DNA of 57,653 nt, from the NCBI RefSeq assembly GCF_009498735.1, contig NZ_ML762438.1:25599-83251 (forward strand). The letters run 5' to 3'. Source of the stretch: Gracilibacillus oryzae (GTDB taxonomy: Bacteria > Bacillota > Bacilli > Bacillales > Amphibacillaceae). Below the pieces are notes generated by a model that did no database searches, had not been told where the DNA came from, and saw nothing but the letters and a program-made list of their open reading frames with translations. This document shows positions 3,052 through 48,519 of this stretch, in pieces (positions within the stretch are counted from its first letter, which is position 1; each line of letters begins with the position of its first letter). The translations under genes and the position numbers were made by a program.

Positions 3052-3126
3052 TCCACAGTAGCTCAGTGGTAGAGCTATCGGCTGTTAACCGATCGGTCGT
3101 AGGTTCGAATCCTACCTGTGGAGCCA
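3052..3126 (+). tRNA. tRNA-Asn (GTT)
   Basis: Full cloverleaf with encoded CCA; acceptor arm TCCACAG / CTGTGGA, anticodon GTT in the loop CTGTTAA, T arm GGTTCGAATCC. First of six tRNA genes in the same orientation, three nucleotides before the next. Confidence 0.97.
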
Positions 3127-3129
3127 TTT

Positions 3130-3206
3130 GGCGGTGTAGCTCAGCTGGCTAGAGCGTACGGTTCATACCCGTGAGGTCGGGGGTTCGATCCCCTCCGCCG
3201 CTACCA
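3130..3206 (+). tRNA. tRNA-Met (CAT), probably elongator
   Basis: 77-nt cloverleaf with encoded CCA, acceptor GGCGGTG and anticodon loop TTCATAC. The body matches what I recall of the B. subtilis elongator methionine tRNA. It lacks the G-C run in the anticodon stem expected of an initiator. Confidence 0.9.
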
Positions 3207-3223
3207 AAAAAACATAAAATAAT

Positions 3224-3300
3224 GGCGGTCGTGGTGAAGTGGTTAACACATCGGATTGTGGTTCCGACATGCGTGGGTTCGATCCCCACCGGTCGCCCCA
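3224..3300 (+). tRNA. tRNA-His (GTG)
   Basis: Anticodon loop TTGTGGT. The gene encodes the extra 5' G (G-1) at 3224 opposite the C discriminator, which is diagnostic for histidine tRNA in bacteria. CCA is encoded. Confidence 0.96.
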
Positions 3301-3314
3301 TTATTAAGCAAGAA

Positions 3315-3391
3315 GGACCCTTAGCTCAGTTGGTTAGAGCTATCGGCTCATAACCGATCGGTCGCAGGTTCGAGTCCTGCAGGGTCCACCA
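3315..3391 (+). tRNA. tRNA with CAT anticodon, probably tRNA-Ile2 (lysidine)
   Basis: 77 nt with encoded CCA, acceptor GGACCCT / AGGGTCC and anticodon loop CTCATAA. The acceptor and D-arm resemble the AUA-reading Ile2 tRNAs, whose C34 is changed to lysidine by TilS, more than the methionine tRNA at 3130. Anticodon alone cannot decide between Ile2 and Met. Confidence 0.75.
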
Positions 3392-3402
3392 ATTAAATAT
3401 AC

Positions 3403-3495
3403 GGAGGAATACCCAAGTCTGGCTGAAGGGATCGGTCTTGAAAACCGACAGGGGTGTCAAAGCCCGCGGGGGTTCGAATCCCTCTTCCTCCTCCA
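3403..3495 (+). tRNA. tRNA-Ser (TGA)
   Basis: 93 nt with the long variable arm typical of serine tRNA, acceptor GGAGGAA / TTCCTCC, anticodon loop CTTGAAA and encoded CCA. Confidence 0.96.
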
Positions 3496-3515
3496 TTCAT
3501 TACATAATACCAGAT

Positions 3516-3591
<76 letters not shown>

Positions 3592-4575: not shown

Positions 4576-5784
4576 ATGTTGTTTTTTAAGAAGTATAAAA
4601 GTGAGATACCAGTGAGTCGTGATTTGAAAATCCTTCTAGTTATTGGGGGACTGTATGCACTGGCAACATTATTATCCAATACGTTTGTTAATATATTTCT
4701 ATGGAAAAAATCAGGAGAGTATCTGGACATCGCTACATATAATCTTTCTATTTATATTGTGCAGCCCATTGCTTTCTCTCTCGCTGGAAAATTGGCGAAG
4801 AAAGTGGACAGGGCATTAATTCTAAGGGCTGGTGTCATAGTTCTCTCTTTTTTTTATATCTTAGTTTTGCTTTTTGGCGATAAAGCAACTACCTATCCTT
4901 ATCTGTTAGGCGGTCTATTGGGTTTTGGGTATGGTTTTTACTGGCTTTCCTTTAATGTGTTAACATTCGAGATTACGGAGCCGGAAACAAGAGACATTTT
5001 TAATGGAATGCTTGGTACATTTCAATCTTTTGGCGGAATGACTGGACCATTGTTTGCAGGTTATATTATCTCTAAGTTAAATAATTTCACTGGCTATACC
5101 GTAATTTTTTTAATTTCCTTTTTACTGTTTGCTGTTGCTGTTTTTTTCTCCTTTTATTTACAAAAGCGCAGAGCTGAAGGGAAATTTATGTTTCGAGAAG
5201 TATTGCTGGAGCGGAAAAGGAATAAAAACTGGAATCAGATTCTCTTAGCTCATATTGCGCAAGGTTTACGGGAAGGATTGTTTATCTTTATTGTGGCAAT
5301 TTGGGTGTACTTAGCGACTGGCAGCGAATTTGCCCTTGGTGTTTATAATCTGCTTTTTTCATTTTGTTCACTGATCTGTTATTTCCTTGCTTCAAGACTG
5401 ATTAAAAACCAGCATCGGAAAAGAATGATATTAATTAGTGGAAGTTTTTTATATATGGCAGTGCTTATCTTAGTTGTTCAGACAAATTATATGATGCTCC
5501 TTATTTATGGGGTGATTGTAGGTTTAAGCTACCCATTATTTAATGTGCCATTTGTTTCGCTGACATATGACATTATCGGTAAGTCATATAAAGCAAAAGA
5601 ATTAAGAATCGAATATATTATCGTTCGTGAGTTATATATCAATATAGGGAGGATTGCAGCTATTCTTATTTTCATTGCAGGTGTAATAATGTTTAAACCA
5701 ACATTAATTATCCTTATCTTGATTCTCAGTTTAGGCGGCGGGAATTTTATCGCAGCATTCTTAATAAGAAAAACTGTAACTTAA
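4576..5784 (+). CDS. yqgE: Major facilitator superfamily transporter (YqgE-like)
   Basis: About 402 residues with roughly 12 hydrophobic helices and a central basic loop near residues 195-220 (QKRRAEGKF...LLERKRNKNW), the MFS layout. Substrate is unknown. Position between sodA and pbpA is the same as B. subtilis yqgE, which supports orthology. ATG 4576 is preferred over 4561 because GAGGTG lies 7 nt before it. It ends about 50 bp before pbpA with no clear terminator, so some co-transcription is possible. Confidence 0.85.
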   Translation: MLFFKKYKSEIPVSRDLKILLVIGGLYALATLLSNTFVNIFLWKKSGEYLDIATYNLSIYIVQPIAFSLAGKLAKKVDRALILRAGVIVLSFFYILVLLFGDKATTYPYLLGGLLGFGYGFYWLSFNVLTFEITEPETRDIFNGMLGTFQSFGGMTGPLFAGYIISKLNNFTGYTVIFLISFLLFAVAVFFSFYLQKRRAEGKFMFREVLLERKRNKNWNQILLAHIAQGLREGLFIFIVAIWVYLATGSEFALGVYNLLFSFCSLICYFLASRLIKNQHRKRMILISGSFLYMAVLILVVQTNYMMLLIYGVIVGLSYPLFNVPFVSLTYDIIGKSYKAKELRIEYIIVRELYINIGRIAAILIFIAGVIMFKPTLIILILILSLGGGNFIAAFLIRKTVT

Positions 5785-43022: not shown

Positions 43023-43907
43023 GTGGAAGCAAACTTAGCAAGCTATATTCAGGAAGAACGCAGTAAACTTAATCAGTTATTATCCAGGTATTTAAATCAT
43101 CTTTCCACACCTGAAATACTGGGCCAATCAACAAAGTACTCCATCGAAGCAGGTGGCAAAAGATTACGGCCAATATTGATGAAACTGACTTGTGAAGGAT
43201 TAAATGGAGATCCTGAAAGGGTATATCCTGCAGCAATGGCTCTCGAGATGATTCATACATACTCACTTATTCATGATGACCTTCCTGCAATGGATAATGA
43301 TACATATCGGCGAGGCATGTTAACAAACCATAAAAAATTTGATGAAGCTACCGCAATTCTGGCAGGTGACGGGTTACTAACAAACAGTTTTCAATTAATT
43401 ACGGAGACAGATTATTATACCGACAGTGAAAAAGTTTTTATTATAAAGAAATTAGCAGAAGCAAGTGGGCTTGAAGGAATGGTTGCTGGACAAGTAATGG
43501 ATATGCAAGCAGAAAAAGAACTGACAACCGTTGAACAGTTAGAAAATATTCATCGTTTGAAAACAGGCAAGCTTTTAACATTTTCCGTAGTAACAGGGGC
43601 ATTTTTAGCGAACGCAAAACAAGAAATACTAGAAATGATGGAGCAATTCGGCACAACAATCGGGTTAATATTTCAAATTCAAGATGATATACTTGATGTC
43701 ATTGGGGATCAGGAAATTATGGGAAAAGCCTCTGGAAGTGATGAAGGCAATCAAAAATCAACTTATCCTTCCTTATTAGGTCTGGAAGGGGCTATAGAGC
43801 ATAAAAATCGATATGTAATGCAGGCAAAACATTTATTACATGAGATGAAATTAGACCAATCGTTATTGGAACAGCTTGTCGACTATTTAAGCAATCGTGA
43901 CCAATAA
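43023..43907 (+). CDS. ispA: Farnesyl diphosphate synthase (geranyltranstransferase)
   Basis: 294 residues of the trans-prenyl synthase family. First aspartate-rich motif HDDLPAMDND, second QDDILDVIGD, and GGKRLRPILM near the start. It builds farnesyl diphosphate from IPP and DMAPP, the pathway that Dxs starts. The start is GTG 43023, after CAGGAGGAAAA. The OLE RNA promoter begins only three bases past its stop codon. Confidence 0.97.
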   Translation: MEANLASYIQEERSKLNQLLSRYLNHLSTPEILGQSTKYSIEAGGKRLRPILMKLTCEGLNGDPERVYPAAMALEMIHTYSLIHDDLPAMDNDTYRRGMLTNHKKFDEATAILAGDGLLTNSFQLITETDYYTDSEKVFIIKKLAEASGLEGMVAGQVMDMQAEKELTTVEQLENIHRLKTGKLLTFSVVTGAFLANAKQEILEMMEQFGTTIGLIFQIQDDILDVIGDQEIMGKASGSDEGNQKSTYPSLLGLEGAIEHKNRYVMQAKHLLHEMKLDQSLLEQLVDYLSNRDQ

Positions 43908-43909
43908 TA

Positions 43910-43938
43910 TTGAGAAAAGATATAATTGATGGTATAAT
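43910..43938 (+). promoter_or_regulatory. Sigma-A promoter of OLE RNA
   Basis: TTGAGA (43910-43915), exactly 17 bp, TATAAT (43933-43938). The -10 box is perfect and the predicted start (about 43945) falls a few bases before the first paired base of OLE RNA. Confidence 0.7.
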
Positions 43939-43950
43939 GTATATACTAAA

Positions 43951-44560
43951 GTGGAATGGTGCAGTATCCTAGTCAATCCTCCATTTCTGAAGGCAGGCCT
44001 AAAAATCTGCCAAAGGGCACATCGATGAAGTTCCTTGTGTTGGCTTGAGGCGCCCAGCCTTGGGTCAATGCTGGGAGTTAAGGTTAAAGGGCGATCCACA
44101 AAGGCATGTGGGCGTAGACCCTTTTTCCGCGGAGGCCCATCTCTGTTTTTGTCGCTTAGCCGAGGGACGAGAATGGAATGGGGTATGAACCTACTTAAAT
44201 AAGGACGGGATTCTTATTAGTAGCGTAGCCTGCCTTGAGTGGTGCGAAGGGGATTACAGGCAATAAAGTGTCTTTATTAGGTGGCCACTAATGAGGACAT
44301 GTTTTTCTGTATGAAATTCGTACTGCAAAAGAGGCTAGGAAATGGTTAAGGATTGTTGAGGAAATCTCCTAGGCTGTTCTGTTCTAAGACATTGATGAGG
44401 GATTATAGTGCGGACTAAGTGGTAATCCAGTCTAGCTGTCGGTGACGGCGCTAAGACAGGTTTAAAGGGGAACCGCCAGAATGGCAACATTCGGTACTTG
44501 TCTGGGAAAACCTACTGGACCTAAGCCGTAGTCTTTACTTCTTCAATGACCAGTCCACAC
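43951..44560 (+). ncRNA. ole: OLE RNA (ornate, large, extremophilic)
   Basis: A protein-free, GC-richer block of about 610 nt, the size known for OLE RNA, lying between ispA and the oapA homologue, the same setting as in Bacillus halodurans. The ends pair: GTGGAATGGT (43951-43960) with ACCAGTCCAC (44549-44558), nine pairs with one A/G mismatch. Inner hairpins are visible, such as GGCAGGC/GTCTGCC-type pairing near 44000 and CCCAGC with GCTGGG near 44060. OLE RNA binds OapA in the membrane; loss causes sensitivity to cold, short-chain alcohol and magnesium in B. halodurans. The call rests on length, synteny and recognition of the sequence; no covariance search was run. Confidence 0.93.
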
Positions 44561-44626
44561 TATTTATCATATTATAGCTGTATTAATATAAAGGGTAAAA
44601 GATGAATACATAAATGAGGTAAATTC

Positions 44627-45202
44627 ATGAATAAGACTCAATTGAAAAAGTCAATAAAATTTAGTTTAAGTATTGCCGTTATCACATTCGTGCTAGCGGC
44701 TATTTTTTCAATCGTCTCTTCATCCGTGCTAGGTGGAGTTTTGTCCATCATCGGGTTATTGATCGTATTTATTATTGTGCTGATTGGTGTATTTTTTGAT
44801 ATGCTTGGTATTGCTGCTACTGCTGCAGATGAAGTTCCTTTCCATGCAATGGCAGCTGAGAGAGTAAACGGGGCCAAACAAGCAATTATTATTGTAAGAA
44901 ATGCAGACAGGTTCGCAAGCTTTTGTAATGATGTGATAGGTGATATTTCCGGTATTATCAGTGGAACAGCATCAGCCATTGTAATCTTGCAAATTGCAAA
45001 TAACTTCGGGTATAGTGAAGGTACAACTTTACATTTAACTTTATCCGTTTTCCTGACTAGTTTAGTTGCTGCATTGACTGTTGGAGGTAAGGCCTTAGGA
45101 AAGTATCTGGCAATACATGCATCAACTAAAATTATATTTTCTGTCGGTAAAATAATTGCATTTTTAGAAGATAAGCTTAAAATAAAAATACTATCTAAAT
45201 AA
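44627..45202 (+). CDS. oapA: OLE-associated membrane protein OapA
   Basis: 191 residues with about four membrane helices (about 14-35, 36-60, 105-125, 134-152). A conserved loop reads DMLGIAATAADEVPFHAMAAERVNGA-like (DMLGIAATAADEVPFHAM, residues about 58-75), then NADRFASFCNDVIGDISG. The PFHAMA and NDVIGDISGIISG segments are those I associate with OapA of B. halodurans. OapA binds OLE RNA and brings it to the membrane. TGAGGTAAATT precedes ATG 44627, 66 bp after the RNA, so the two are probably co-transcribed. Function depends on its RNA partner; magnesium homeostasis is implicated. Confidence 0.92.
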   Translation: MNKTQLKKSIKFSLSIAVITFVLAAIFSIVSSSVLGGVLSIIGLLIVFIIVLIGVFFDMLGIAATAADEVPFHAMAAERVNGAKQAIIIVRNADRFASFCNDVIGDISGIISGTASAIVILQIANNFGYSEGTTLHLTLSVFLTSLVAALTVGGKALGKYLAIHASTKIIFSVGKIIAFLEDKLKIKILSK

Positions 45203-45283
45203 ATATGTTATTTGCGTTTATGGATGGGTAAATGTTAAACATAGAGAAGACTATAAATGAATGAAGCAGGGAGGGCACCGATT

Positions 45284-47182
45284 GTGGACCTTACCAAAAT
45301 GAAAGATCCAAAATTTTTAAAACAATTGTCGGTGGAAGAATTAGATGAACTAGCGAAACATATTCGCCAGTTTTTAATTGAGAAATTATCAGTAACAGGT
45401 GGACATCTAGGTGCAAATTTAGGTGTTGTAGAATTAACATTGGCGTTACACAAACATTTTAACAGCCCAAAGGACAAGCTGATCTTTGATGTGGGCCATC
45501 AATCCTATATTCATAAGATGCTGACAGGAAGAACAGACCAGTTTGATACTTTACGTCAATTTAAAGGTCTTTGCGGATTTCCAAAAATGTCAGAAAGTGA
45601 GCATGATGTCTGGGAAACAGGTCACAGTTCTACATCATTATCTGCTGCAATGGGTATGGCTGTAGCTAGAGATATGAAAAATGAGGATCATGCAGTTGTA
45701 CCAATTATTGGTGATGGTGCATTAACCGGTGGAATGGCTTTAGAGGCATTAAACCATATTGGCCACGAAAAGAAGAAGTTAACAGTCATACTTAATGACA
45801 ATGAAATGTCCATTGCCGGAAATGTTGGAGCACTTCATAAAGCTCTAGGCAGAATGCGCAGTGCGGGTAAGTATAACAGGGTAAAAGACGAAATTGAATA
45901 CTTGATGAAAAGAATTCCGGCTGTTGGCGGAAAAATCGCCCAGACTGCAGAGCGTGTGAAAGACAGCATGAAGTATTTTATGGTTCCTGGTATGCTGTTT
46001 GAGGAATTTGGATTTACGTATTTCGGTCCAGTTGACGGTCATGATTTTAAAGATCTGGAAGAAAACCTGCAATATGCTTCCAAAACGGATGGACCAGTGC
46101 TCATTCATGTTATCACTAAGAAAGGGAAAGGTTATCAGCCTGCTGAAAGTGATAAAAAAGACAGATGGCATGGTGTAGGTCCTTATAAAATTGATTCTGG
46201 GGAAAAAATTAAACCAGTTGATAATAAACCAGCATGGAGTCAAGTTGTCAGTGATGCAGTGGAAAAAATTGCAGAAAAAGATGATCGGGTTGCAGTCATC
46301 ACTCCTGCCATGATTCTTGGATCGAAATTGGAGAAATTTCAAAAGCACTTTCCTGATCGCCTGTTTGATGTAGGGATAGCGGAGCAGCATGCTGTGACAA
46401 TGGCTGCAGGGATGGCAACACAAGGCATGAAACCATTTGTCGCCATTTATTCCACTTTTCTGCAGCGTGCTTATGATCAGATGGTTCATGATGTTTGCCG
46501 CCAGAAGTTAAATGTAGCGTTTGGTATTGACCGTGCAGGATTAGTTGGAGCTGATGGAGAGACTCATCAAGGCGTTTTTGATATTGCCTTTCTGAGACAC
46601 TTGCCAAACATTGTTCTGATGATGCCTAAGGATGAAAACGAATGTCAGCATATGGTGCATACTGCTTTGTCTTATAATGACGGTCCGATCGCCTTACGTT
46701 TTCCAAGAGGTAATGGATTAGGGGTGCATATGGACAAAGAATTTCAACAGCTTCCAATTGGAAAATGGGAAGTTCTTGAGAAGGGGAATGATGCAGTCAT
46801 TCTTACTTTTGGTACAACCATCGAAATGGCGTTATCTGCCAGTAAGAAATTGAAAAAAAGCGGCGTTAATGTTGAAGTAGTAAATGCGCGTTTTCTTAAA
46901 CCTTTAGATAATGAGATGCTTCATGACATAATGAAAAGAAATGTGCCGATTTTAACACTGGAAGAAGCAGTTCTCCAAGGTGGATTTGGAAGTTCAATTC
47001 TGGAATTCGCGGAGGAAAACAGTTATTATCCAAGATTAAAACGAATGGGAATACCTGATCAATATATCGAGCATGGAAGTGTCAACAAATTATTAGAAGA
47101 GATTGGCTTAACAGAAGATCAAGTTATAACGGAAATAAACCATTTATTGCATCCACAAAAGAATAATATAAAAAGGGCATGA
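45284..47182 (+). CDS. dxs: 1-deoxy-D-xylulose-5-phosphate synthase
   Basis: 632 residues, near the B. subtilis length. Thiamine-diphosphate motif GDGALTGG...[23 protein letters not shown] at the start, and the transketolase part with [17 protein letters not shown] and [18 protein letters not shown] (blocks along the chain). It makes DXP from pyruvate and glyceraldehyde 3-phosphate, the entry to the MEP isoprenoid pathway. GTG 45284, 9 nt after GGGAGG, fits the family start; an ATG at 45257 would add nine residues. Confidence 0.97.
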
Positions 47183-48069: not shown

Positions 48070-48519
48070 ATGAATAAAGCACAAAGGCATATTAAAATTA
48101 GGGAAATCATCTCCGAAAATGAAATAGAAACACAAGATGATCTGGTGAACTGCTTTAGAGATTTAGGTTATGCCATCACACAAGCGACAATCTCTCGCGA
48201 TATCAAAGAATTGCATTTAGTAAAAGTGCCGACGACGGAAGGGAAGTATAAATACAGTTTACCTGCTGATCAAAAATTTAACCCATTGAATAAGTTAAGA
48301 AGGTTTATAATGGATGCATTTATCAGTATTGATACAGCTACCCATTTTATTGTAATGAAAACACTCCCAGGTAATGCCCAGGCTATGGGAGCATTAATCG
48401 ATAACCTTGGCTGGGAAGAAATTATTGGCACTATATGTGGTGATGATACCATCCTTATTATATGCAAAACAAACGAAGACGCGGAAGCGTTAAAAGAAAA
48501 ATTCTTAGAAATGCTTTAA
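48070..48519 (+). CDS. argR: Arginine repressor ArgR/AhrC
   Basis: 149 residues. N-terminal winged helix with [17 protein letters not shown] and C-terminal arginine-binding hexamer domain ending in [14 protein letters not shown]. It represses arginine synthesis and activates catabolism in response to arginine. TTGGAGGAAT precedes ATG 48070. Adjacent to recN as in B. subtilis. Confidence 0.97.

Follow-up and report, generated by a model that had tools for sequence, protein, structure and literature searches.

A complete OLE RNA in Gracilibacillus oryzae and a conserved UACAUA hexamer, a candidate EndoA cutting site, between OLE and oapA

The OLE RNA of Halalkalibacterium halodurans lies in an ispA/dxs neighbourhood. 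In other species OLE dimerises, OapA holds it at the membrane, and together with OapB and OapC it helps cells grow in the cold and under alcohol, Mg2+ and carbon-source stress. The H. halodurans RNA of about 630 nt is described as located within a long operon with a promoter of its own, and its release from the longer transcript is worded as "presumably posttranscriptionally processed" in the accessible part of that report (PMC9723947). The contacts of the OLE dimer seen by cryo-EM are an A-rich L4 loop and a palindromic L9 loop (PMC12286853, accessible text), and the helices P1 and P2 are named in the unresolved end domain (PMC12265935, likewise). ArgR was named as an unpublished OLE partner, and a CCUCCU anti-Shine-Dalgarno mimic was reported in P6 of the H. 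halodurans RNA, both in the accessible sections of PMC12054373. The toxin nuclease EndoA (MazF) of Bacillus subtilis cuts U/ACAUA, only if A follows UACAU, and in the parts of PMC11780869 available to us this cutting was seen only in exonuclease mutants and not in the wild type. The role of the toxin-antitoxin system MazEF is still debated (PMC6562991, available text).

The window analysed here, a stretch of 57,653 nt from Gracilibacillus oryzae (assembly GCF_009498735.1, contig NZ_ML762438.1, positions 25,599 to 83,251 of the forward strand), contains an RNA that the initial annotation had read as OLE. Through the search with the Rfam covariance model RF01071, we found a match over the whole model (1-616) at 43940-44569 on the + strand with 526.1 bits and E 1.7e-151, against a curated threshold of 50 bits. 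Conserved OLE helices were retained, 152 of 158 mapped Rfam pairs being standard in the window sequence. Both checks supported the annotated identity, and it is virtually certain that the RNA is OLE. One copy was found in the 53 contigs of the host genome. The features of the locus are:

43023..43907, + strand, ispA, farnesyl diphosphate synthase
43910..43938, + strand, predicted OLE promoter, 11 of 12 consensus letters, TG before the -10
43940..44569, + strand, OLE RNA, full-model match to RF01071
44607..44612, + strand, UACAUA in the OLE-oapA spacer, candidate site of EndoA (MazF) cutting
44627..45202, + strand, oapA, OLE-associated membrane protein A, 191 aa, weak CNNM match
45257..47182, + strand, dxs, 1-deoxy-D-xylulose-5-phosphate synthase
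48070..48519, + strand, argR/ahrC

The gene order is xseB, ispA, OLE, oapA, dxs, tlyA and argR, with folD and xseA further upstream (named by reading the open reading frames, without a family scan). OLE occupies a noncoding block between ispA and oapA as annotated, and the annotated synteny and partner gene were also borne out, with ispA before OLE, oapA directly after it and dxs next. Six tRNA genes stand in a row at 3052-3588 (+) of the window.

The OapA protein scored 19.9 bits against CNNM, below the cut-off of 28.4. This weak match appears in line with the published likeness of OapA to MpfA (PMC11332333, accessible text). Its six best matches were all from Gracilibacillus, the closest being G. 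ureilyticus with 91%. The other two partners are encoded in the host genome as well. An OapB frame (L120, 9381-9716), between adk and infA, matched PDB 7k9b (OLE-associated protein B) with E 1.2e-30, and an OapC frame (L112, 1483-1734), before rpsL, matched PDB 3v7e (L7Ae-like) with E 4.5e-20 and PDB 4lck (YbxF) with E 5.6e-20; both placements were read from the open reading frames. MpfA has been reported as anticorrelated with OLE. CNNM proteins, counted as CNNM matches and not as MpfA orthologues as such, were found in 149 of 159 family genomes, OLE-bearing or not, and the host itself has two CNNM-domain proteins (G000:C35:19056-19592 and G000:C1:546167-546751).

Compared with H. halodurans OLE and RF01071, the window locus shares the full-length model match, oapA directly downstream, an own promoter (PMC9723947, accessible part), the presence of OapA, OapB and OapC, and the conserved dimer loops. 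It differs in that CCUCCU is missing from the window OLE, as checked in the sequence, and in one mismatch of the terminal helix. OLE variants 1 and 2 of the TANB77 and RF39 clades belong to the same RNA class, but according to the available text of PMC11332333 their P7-P9 are shortened or P7 and P8 are missing, whereas the window copy is full length.

OLE was found in 17/17 genomes of the host genus and in 111/159 genomes of the host family. OapA was found in 111/159 family genomes too, and the two sets are the same when the listed genomes are compared by eye. For Bacillota, 2,822 OLE hits are in print (PMC11332333, in the accessible part). The copy had been presented as a natural variant that adds to the known members; it is a genuine full OLE, but not a rare one, and the gain is small because OLE copies are common in the family and in Bacillota. 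Considering its frequency in the genus and family, the window OLE is an ordinary, complete copy, one more genome in a well-populated class.

Some loci of the family depart from the usual arrangement. In G078, an OLE remnant of 394 nt (L116, G078:C10:442000-452000, positions 4797-5190, 133.8 bits) had most of the 3' domain gone and adjoined a broken oapA, with dxs absent at the site; OLE and oapA seem to have decayed together in this genome. Its genus (g24) showed any OLE match in 7 of 28 genomes, G078 counted. In G109, the main oapA (L128, G109:C1:2173000-2179500) was matched as two overlapping pieces, one with stops, beside a full-length OLE, which suggests a frameshift in this oapA. A stand-alone second OapA paralogue with 44-47% identity was found in G034 (G034:C1:295622-296149, L121) and once each in G139, G140, G143 and G145, and these five genomes also have the usual ole-oapA pair; stand-alone copies with stops were found in G138 and G141. 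A hidden second OLE beside the stand-alone paralogues was searched for in seven loci (L121-L127), and no match appeared at E up to 1.

The architecture of the RNA was studied by aligning 98 OLE sequences (alignment A1): the window, 80 named loci and 17 of 30 further loci, of which the other 13 are exact duplicates of named ones. The following parts are referred to below:

43951..43960, + strand, 5' strand of the terminal helix (taken as P1), covariation in 98 sequences
44549..44558, + strand, 3' strand of the terminal helix (taken as P1), covariation in 98 sequences
43961..43972, + strand, 5' strand of the second long-range helix (taken as P2), GCAGU...CUAG, alignment of 98
44369..44377, + strand, 3' strand of the second long-range helix (taken as P2), alignment of 98
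44282..44287, + strand, palindromic loop UGGCCA, GGCC 44283-44286 invariant in 98

Neither end helix stands in the structure line of RF01071, and we took them as P1 and P2 because the accessible text of PMC12265935 names these helices in the end domain. Nine pairs between 43951-43960 and 44549-44558 had been annotated and are correct letter for letter; the pairing goes beyond chance, both partners having changed in 6 of its 10 pairs among the 98 sequences. The helix was paired in 94.4% of cells and ends at 44558. Its tenth position, A43956-G44553, is unpaired in the window, the sole non-pair there among the 98 aligned OLE. The second long-range helix was 100% paired and nearly invariant. Taken jointly, the two helices exceeded all 500 shuffles on 4 of 5 measures (the fifth was reached by 7 of 500) and every slid version on 5 of 5. 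The structure including both of them has 177 pairs, of which 91.8% were paired across the 98 sequences, against 82.1% in shuffled and 39.5-45.2% in slid versions. In larger sets, the six innermost pairs of the terminal helix could form in 181 of 186 located sequences against 66 of 186 shuffled stretches; this count, in which the script placement looks wrong in L173, L210, L213 and L221, gives mild support to the helix. The GGCC loop at 44283-44286 matches the published dimer kissing loop, and both the A-rich L4 loop CUAAAAAU and GGCC are invariant in the alignment, window included.

The mismatch of the terminal helix, unique at that pair among 98, and the displaced position of UACAUA in the window (described below) could be considered signs that the OLE copy is present in this Gracilibacillus host with its function lost. 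The match of 526 bits, the intact OapA frame and promoter and the presence of OapB and OapC argue against this, and a decaying OLE looks different, as in G078, where the score is 134 bits, the 3' domain is lost and oapA is broken. We regard loss of function as hardly credible.

Upstream of the RNA, the predicted promoter consists of a -35 element TTGAGA at 43910-43915 and, after 17 nt, an extended -10 element TGgTATAAT with its hexamer at 43933-43938, and from its position the RNA start is expected near 43945. The extended -10 begins 20-24 nt upstream of the conserved UGGUGCAG in 92 of 98 loci, and TTGAG precedes the -10 by 17 or 18 nt in 62 of 98. The mean promoter score over the 98 loci was 7.4 against 5.4 in shuffles; the TG count of 98/98 arises partly by construction because the selection rewarded TG. 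Within 80 nt upstream of OLE, TGn with at least five of six -10 letters was found in 60/62 other Bacilli and 22/26 sequences outside Bacilli, counts taken without a shuffle control. Judged from these letters, the promoter is OLE's own and is conserved. The annotated ispA-OLE-oapA-dxs operon is thus only part of the picture: the gene order stands, but a conserved extended -10 promoter lies directly upstream of OLE.

The OLE copy itself adds little, and the part worth following is a conserved RNA-strand hexamer, UACAUA, in the ole-oapA spacer. It was found no more than 30 nt from the helix end in 90/98 sequences, where 1.9 were expected by mononucleotide shuffle, and all 90 start 0-9 nt after the helix. 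Counted over 70 nt from inside the terminal helix and against dinucleotide shuffles, it occurred in 93/98 near relatives (expected 5.9), in 47/62 other Bacilli (expected 1.8; 62 located of 69) and in 4/26 sequences outside Bacilli (expected 0.6; 26 located of 30). It topped all hexamers by z in the near and other-Bacilli sets and not outside Bacilli. At least one locus carries it in 20 of 22 named genera, and it appeared at least once in 16 and in the majority in 13 of 20 other Bacilli families. The loci are related, so the counts are not independent; we trusted them because the position slides and the spacer is otherwise poorly conserved. Eleven of 197 sequences (seven of the class set, four of the phylum set) were missed by the anchors and stand outside these counts. 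Among them, L181 and L135 had the hexamer near the OLE end, L191, L136, L138 and L140 had none, and L211, L212, L220, L224 and L228 were left out of the reading.

The enrichment is confined to this place. In the near set, UACAUA was found in 2/98 sequences within 80 nt before OLE, in 2/98 in the OLE body and in 0/80 within 70 nt downstream of the oapA stop; in other Bacilli it was found in 3/62 upstream and 1/62 in the OLE body. Upstream of other open reading frames it occurred in 19/586 cases, against 66/76 named loci with the oapA start placed by script. It was absent in 5/98 near relatives and in 15/62 other Bacilli, the latter including 8/8 sequences of four families.

The hexamer could also be read at the DNA level, as part of an oapA promoter (its -10 element) or as some other DNA site. 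A promoter-like match with TATTAT lies nearby (44546-44575, 9 of 12 letters), and CATAAT occurs in 29/98 flanks. On the other side, the hexamer is strand-specific: its reverse complement, found in 2/98 near relatives and 1/62 other Bacilli, shows no enrichment. TACATA is followed by no fixed base, its place in the spacer shifts, and in some relatives it overlaps the start codon. Promoter-like sites in the stretch numbered 12 against 8.3 (sd 2.4) in shuffles. A DNA-level site is accordingly very unlikely.

As RNA, the spacer of ole-oapA shares the exact hexamer U/ACAUA with the targets of B. subtilis EndoA (NdoA, MazF); those targets lie across the transcriptome (PMC11780869, accessible text), and the ole-oapA site is a candidate target. 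UACAU was followed by A in 97/101 cases in the near set and in 47/52 in other Bacilli. The host has an EndoA orthologue about 90% identical to that of B. subtilis (96 of 107 residues, counted from the alignment). We propose that EndoA, or another reader of the same site, may separate OLE from oapA mRNA under stress. In this proposal, OLE transcription would continue into oapA; a cut at the spacer UACAUA (44607/44608 in the window), most likely made by EndoA upon its activation by stress, would separate OLE from the oapA mRNA; and OLE would then be trimmed back to its terminal helix. The distance from predicted start to cut had a median of 613 nt in 94 near relatives and 618 nt in 48 other Bacilli, so that in most species a cut would release an OLE of about the size observed, which is about 630 nt in H. 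halodurans. In the window this distance is 663 nt, and a cut here would leave a longer tail to trim: the hexamer begins 49 nt beyond the terminal helix, close to the ribosome site of oapA, and in most relatives it stands next to the helix.

We consider the joint reading, a functional, canonical Gracilibacillus OLE to which a putative spacer cut by EndoA and trimming are added, very probable as a whole. For the EndoA step itself, the candidate cut at the spacer UACAUA, the chances appear even. Marginally less firmly we hold the claim for Bacilli at large, that the ole-oapA transcript has a conserved EndoA cutting site at which stress-freed EndoA would cut OLE from the oapA mRNA.

The same hexamer, uncut, may serve in the oapA leader as a site for an RNA-binding regulator, or be a component of the OLE particle not yet on record, setting the output or assembly of OapA. 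UACAUA stands at variable distance between the OLE end and the oapA start, and it abuts the start codon of oapA in several members of family f156 (TACATAATG). In L180 it lies beyond a hairpin and T-run resembling a terminator, and since the site follows this hairpin its role there may concern oapA and not OLE. Where it stands close to the oapA start, as in some families, or behind the L180 hairpin, the site would fit oapA control just as well as the EndoA step, and wild-type B. subtilis showed no EndoA cutting in the accessible text of PMC11780869. Against an uncut site, the conserved letters, sixth A included, equal the strict EndoA hexamer, and in 90/98 near relatives the hexamer begins 0-9 nt after the terminal helix, with no fixed spacing to the start codon. 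We judge an uncut regulatory site possible, though the less likely reading. Among other-Bacilli loci of sufficient length, 26 of 27 have oapA adjoining OLE, so the EndoA cut and oapA control cannot be told apart through loci lacking oapA.

Besides the lack of cutting in wild-type B. subtilis and the displaced hexamer of the window, two distributions speak against the proposed EndoA step. Outside Bacilli, an EndoA-like protein was found in 16/17 genomes tested (identity 67-75% in 15 and 47% in the remaining one), despite which the conservation of UACAUA is low there. The four families without UACAUA (8 sequences) have EndoA in all 8 genomes. The presence of EndoA against the presence of the site was tried as a test and set aside: EndoA was matched in 63/63 Bacilli tested and does not discriminate. 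One of these matches (G628, L189) is broken, split into two pieces and carrying a stop; that locus nevertheless has UACAUA.

Depletion of UACAUA within the transcript was also tried as support for cutting. OLE had 2 sites against 8.1 expected and oapA 3 against 12.9 (shuffles), but we did not count this because the neighbouring genes are low too (per kb, dxs 0.165, tlyA 0.151 and argR 0.055). The fold of 44520-44660 was no more stable than shuffles (z 0.38), a result that speaks neither for nor against the single-stranded UACAUA that an EndoA target requires.

If EndoA releases OLE, a stress-linked RNA particle and a debated toxin-antitoxin system would be directly joined: the OLE stress particle would be tied to MazEF, and the toxin nuclease would gain a constructive, conserved job in RNA processing. 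The link is testable in H. halodurans, where genetics exist. In the accessible portions of open-access papers, outside which the first OLE reports may lie, we found no link of UACAUA to OLE. No open-access paper was found with both "OLE RNA" and "EndoA", and "MazF" and "EndoA" are absent from the main texts of the OLE papers PMC10898510 and PMC11332333. "OLE RNA" and "MazF" occur once each, at the level of listings, in the available part of a Staphylococcus phage-host transcriptome study.

In family f166 (L214, L223, L225-L227 and L230), the hexamer stands well after the terminal helix with a GGAAAA-like run just before it, and this shared context is possibly another conserved element.
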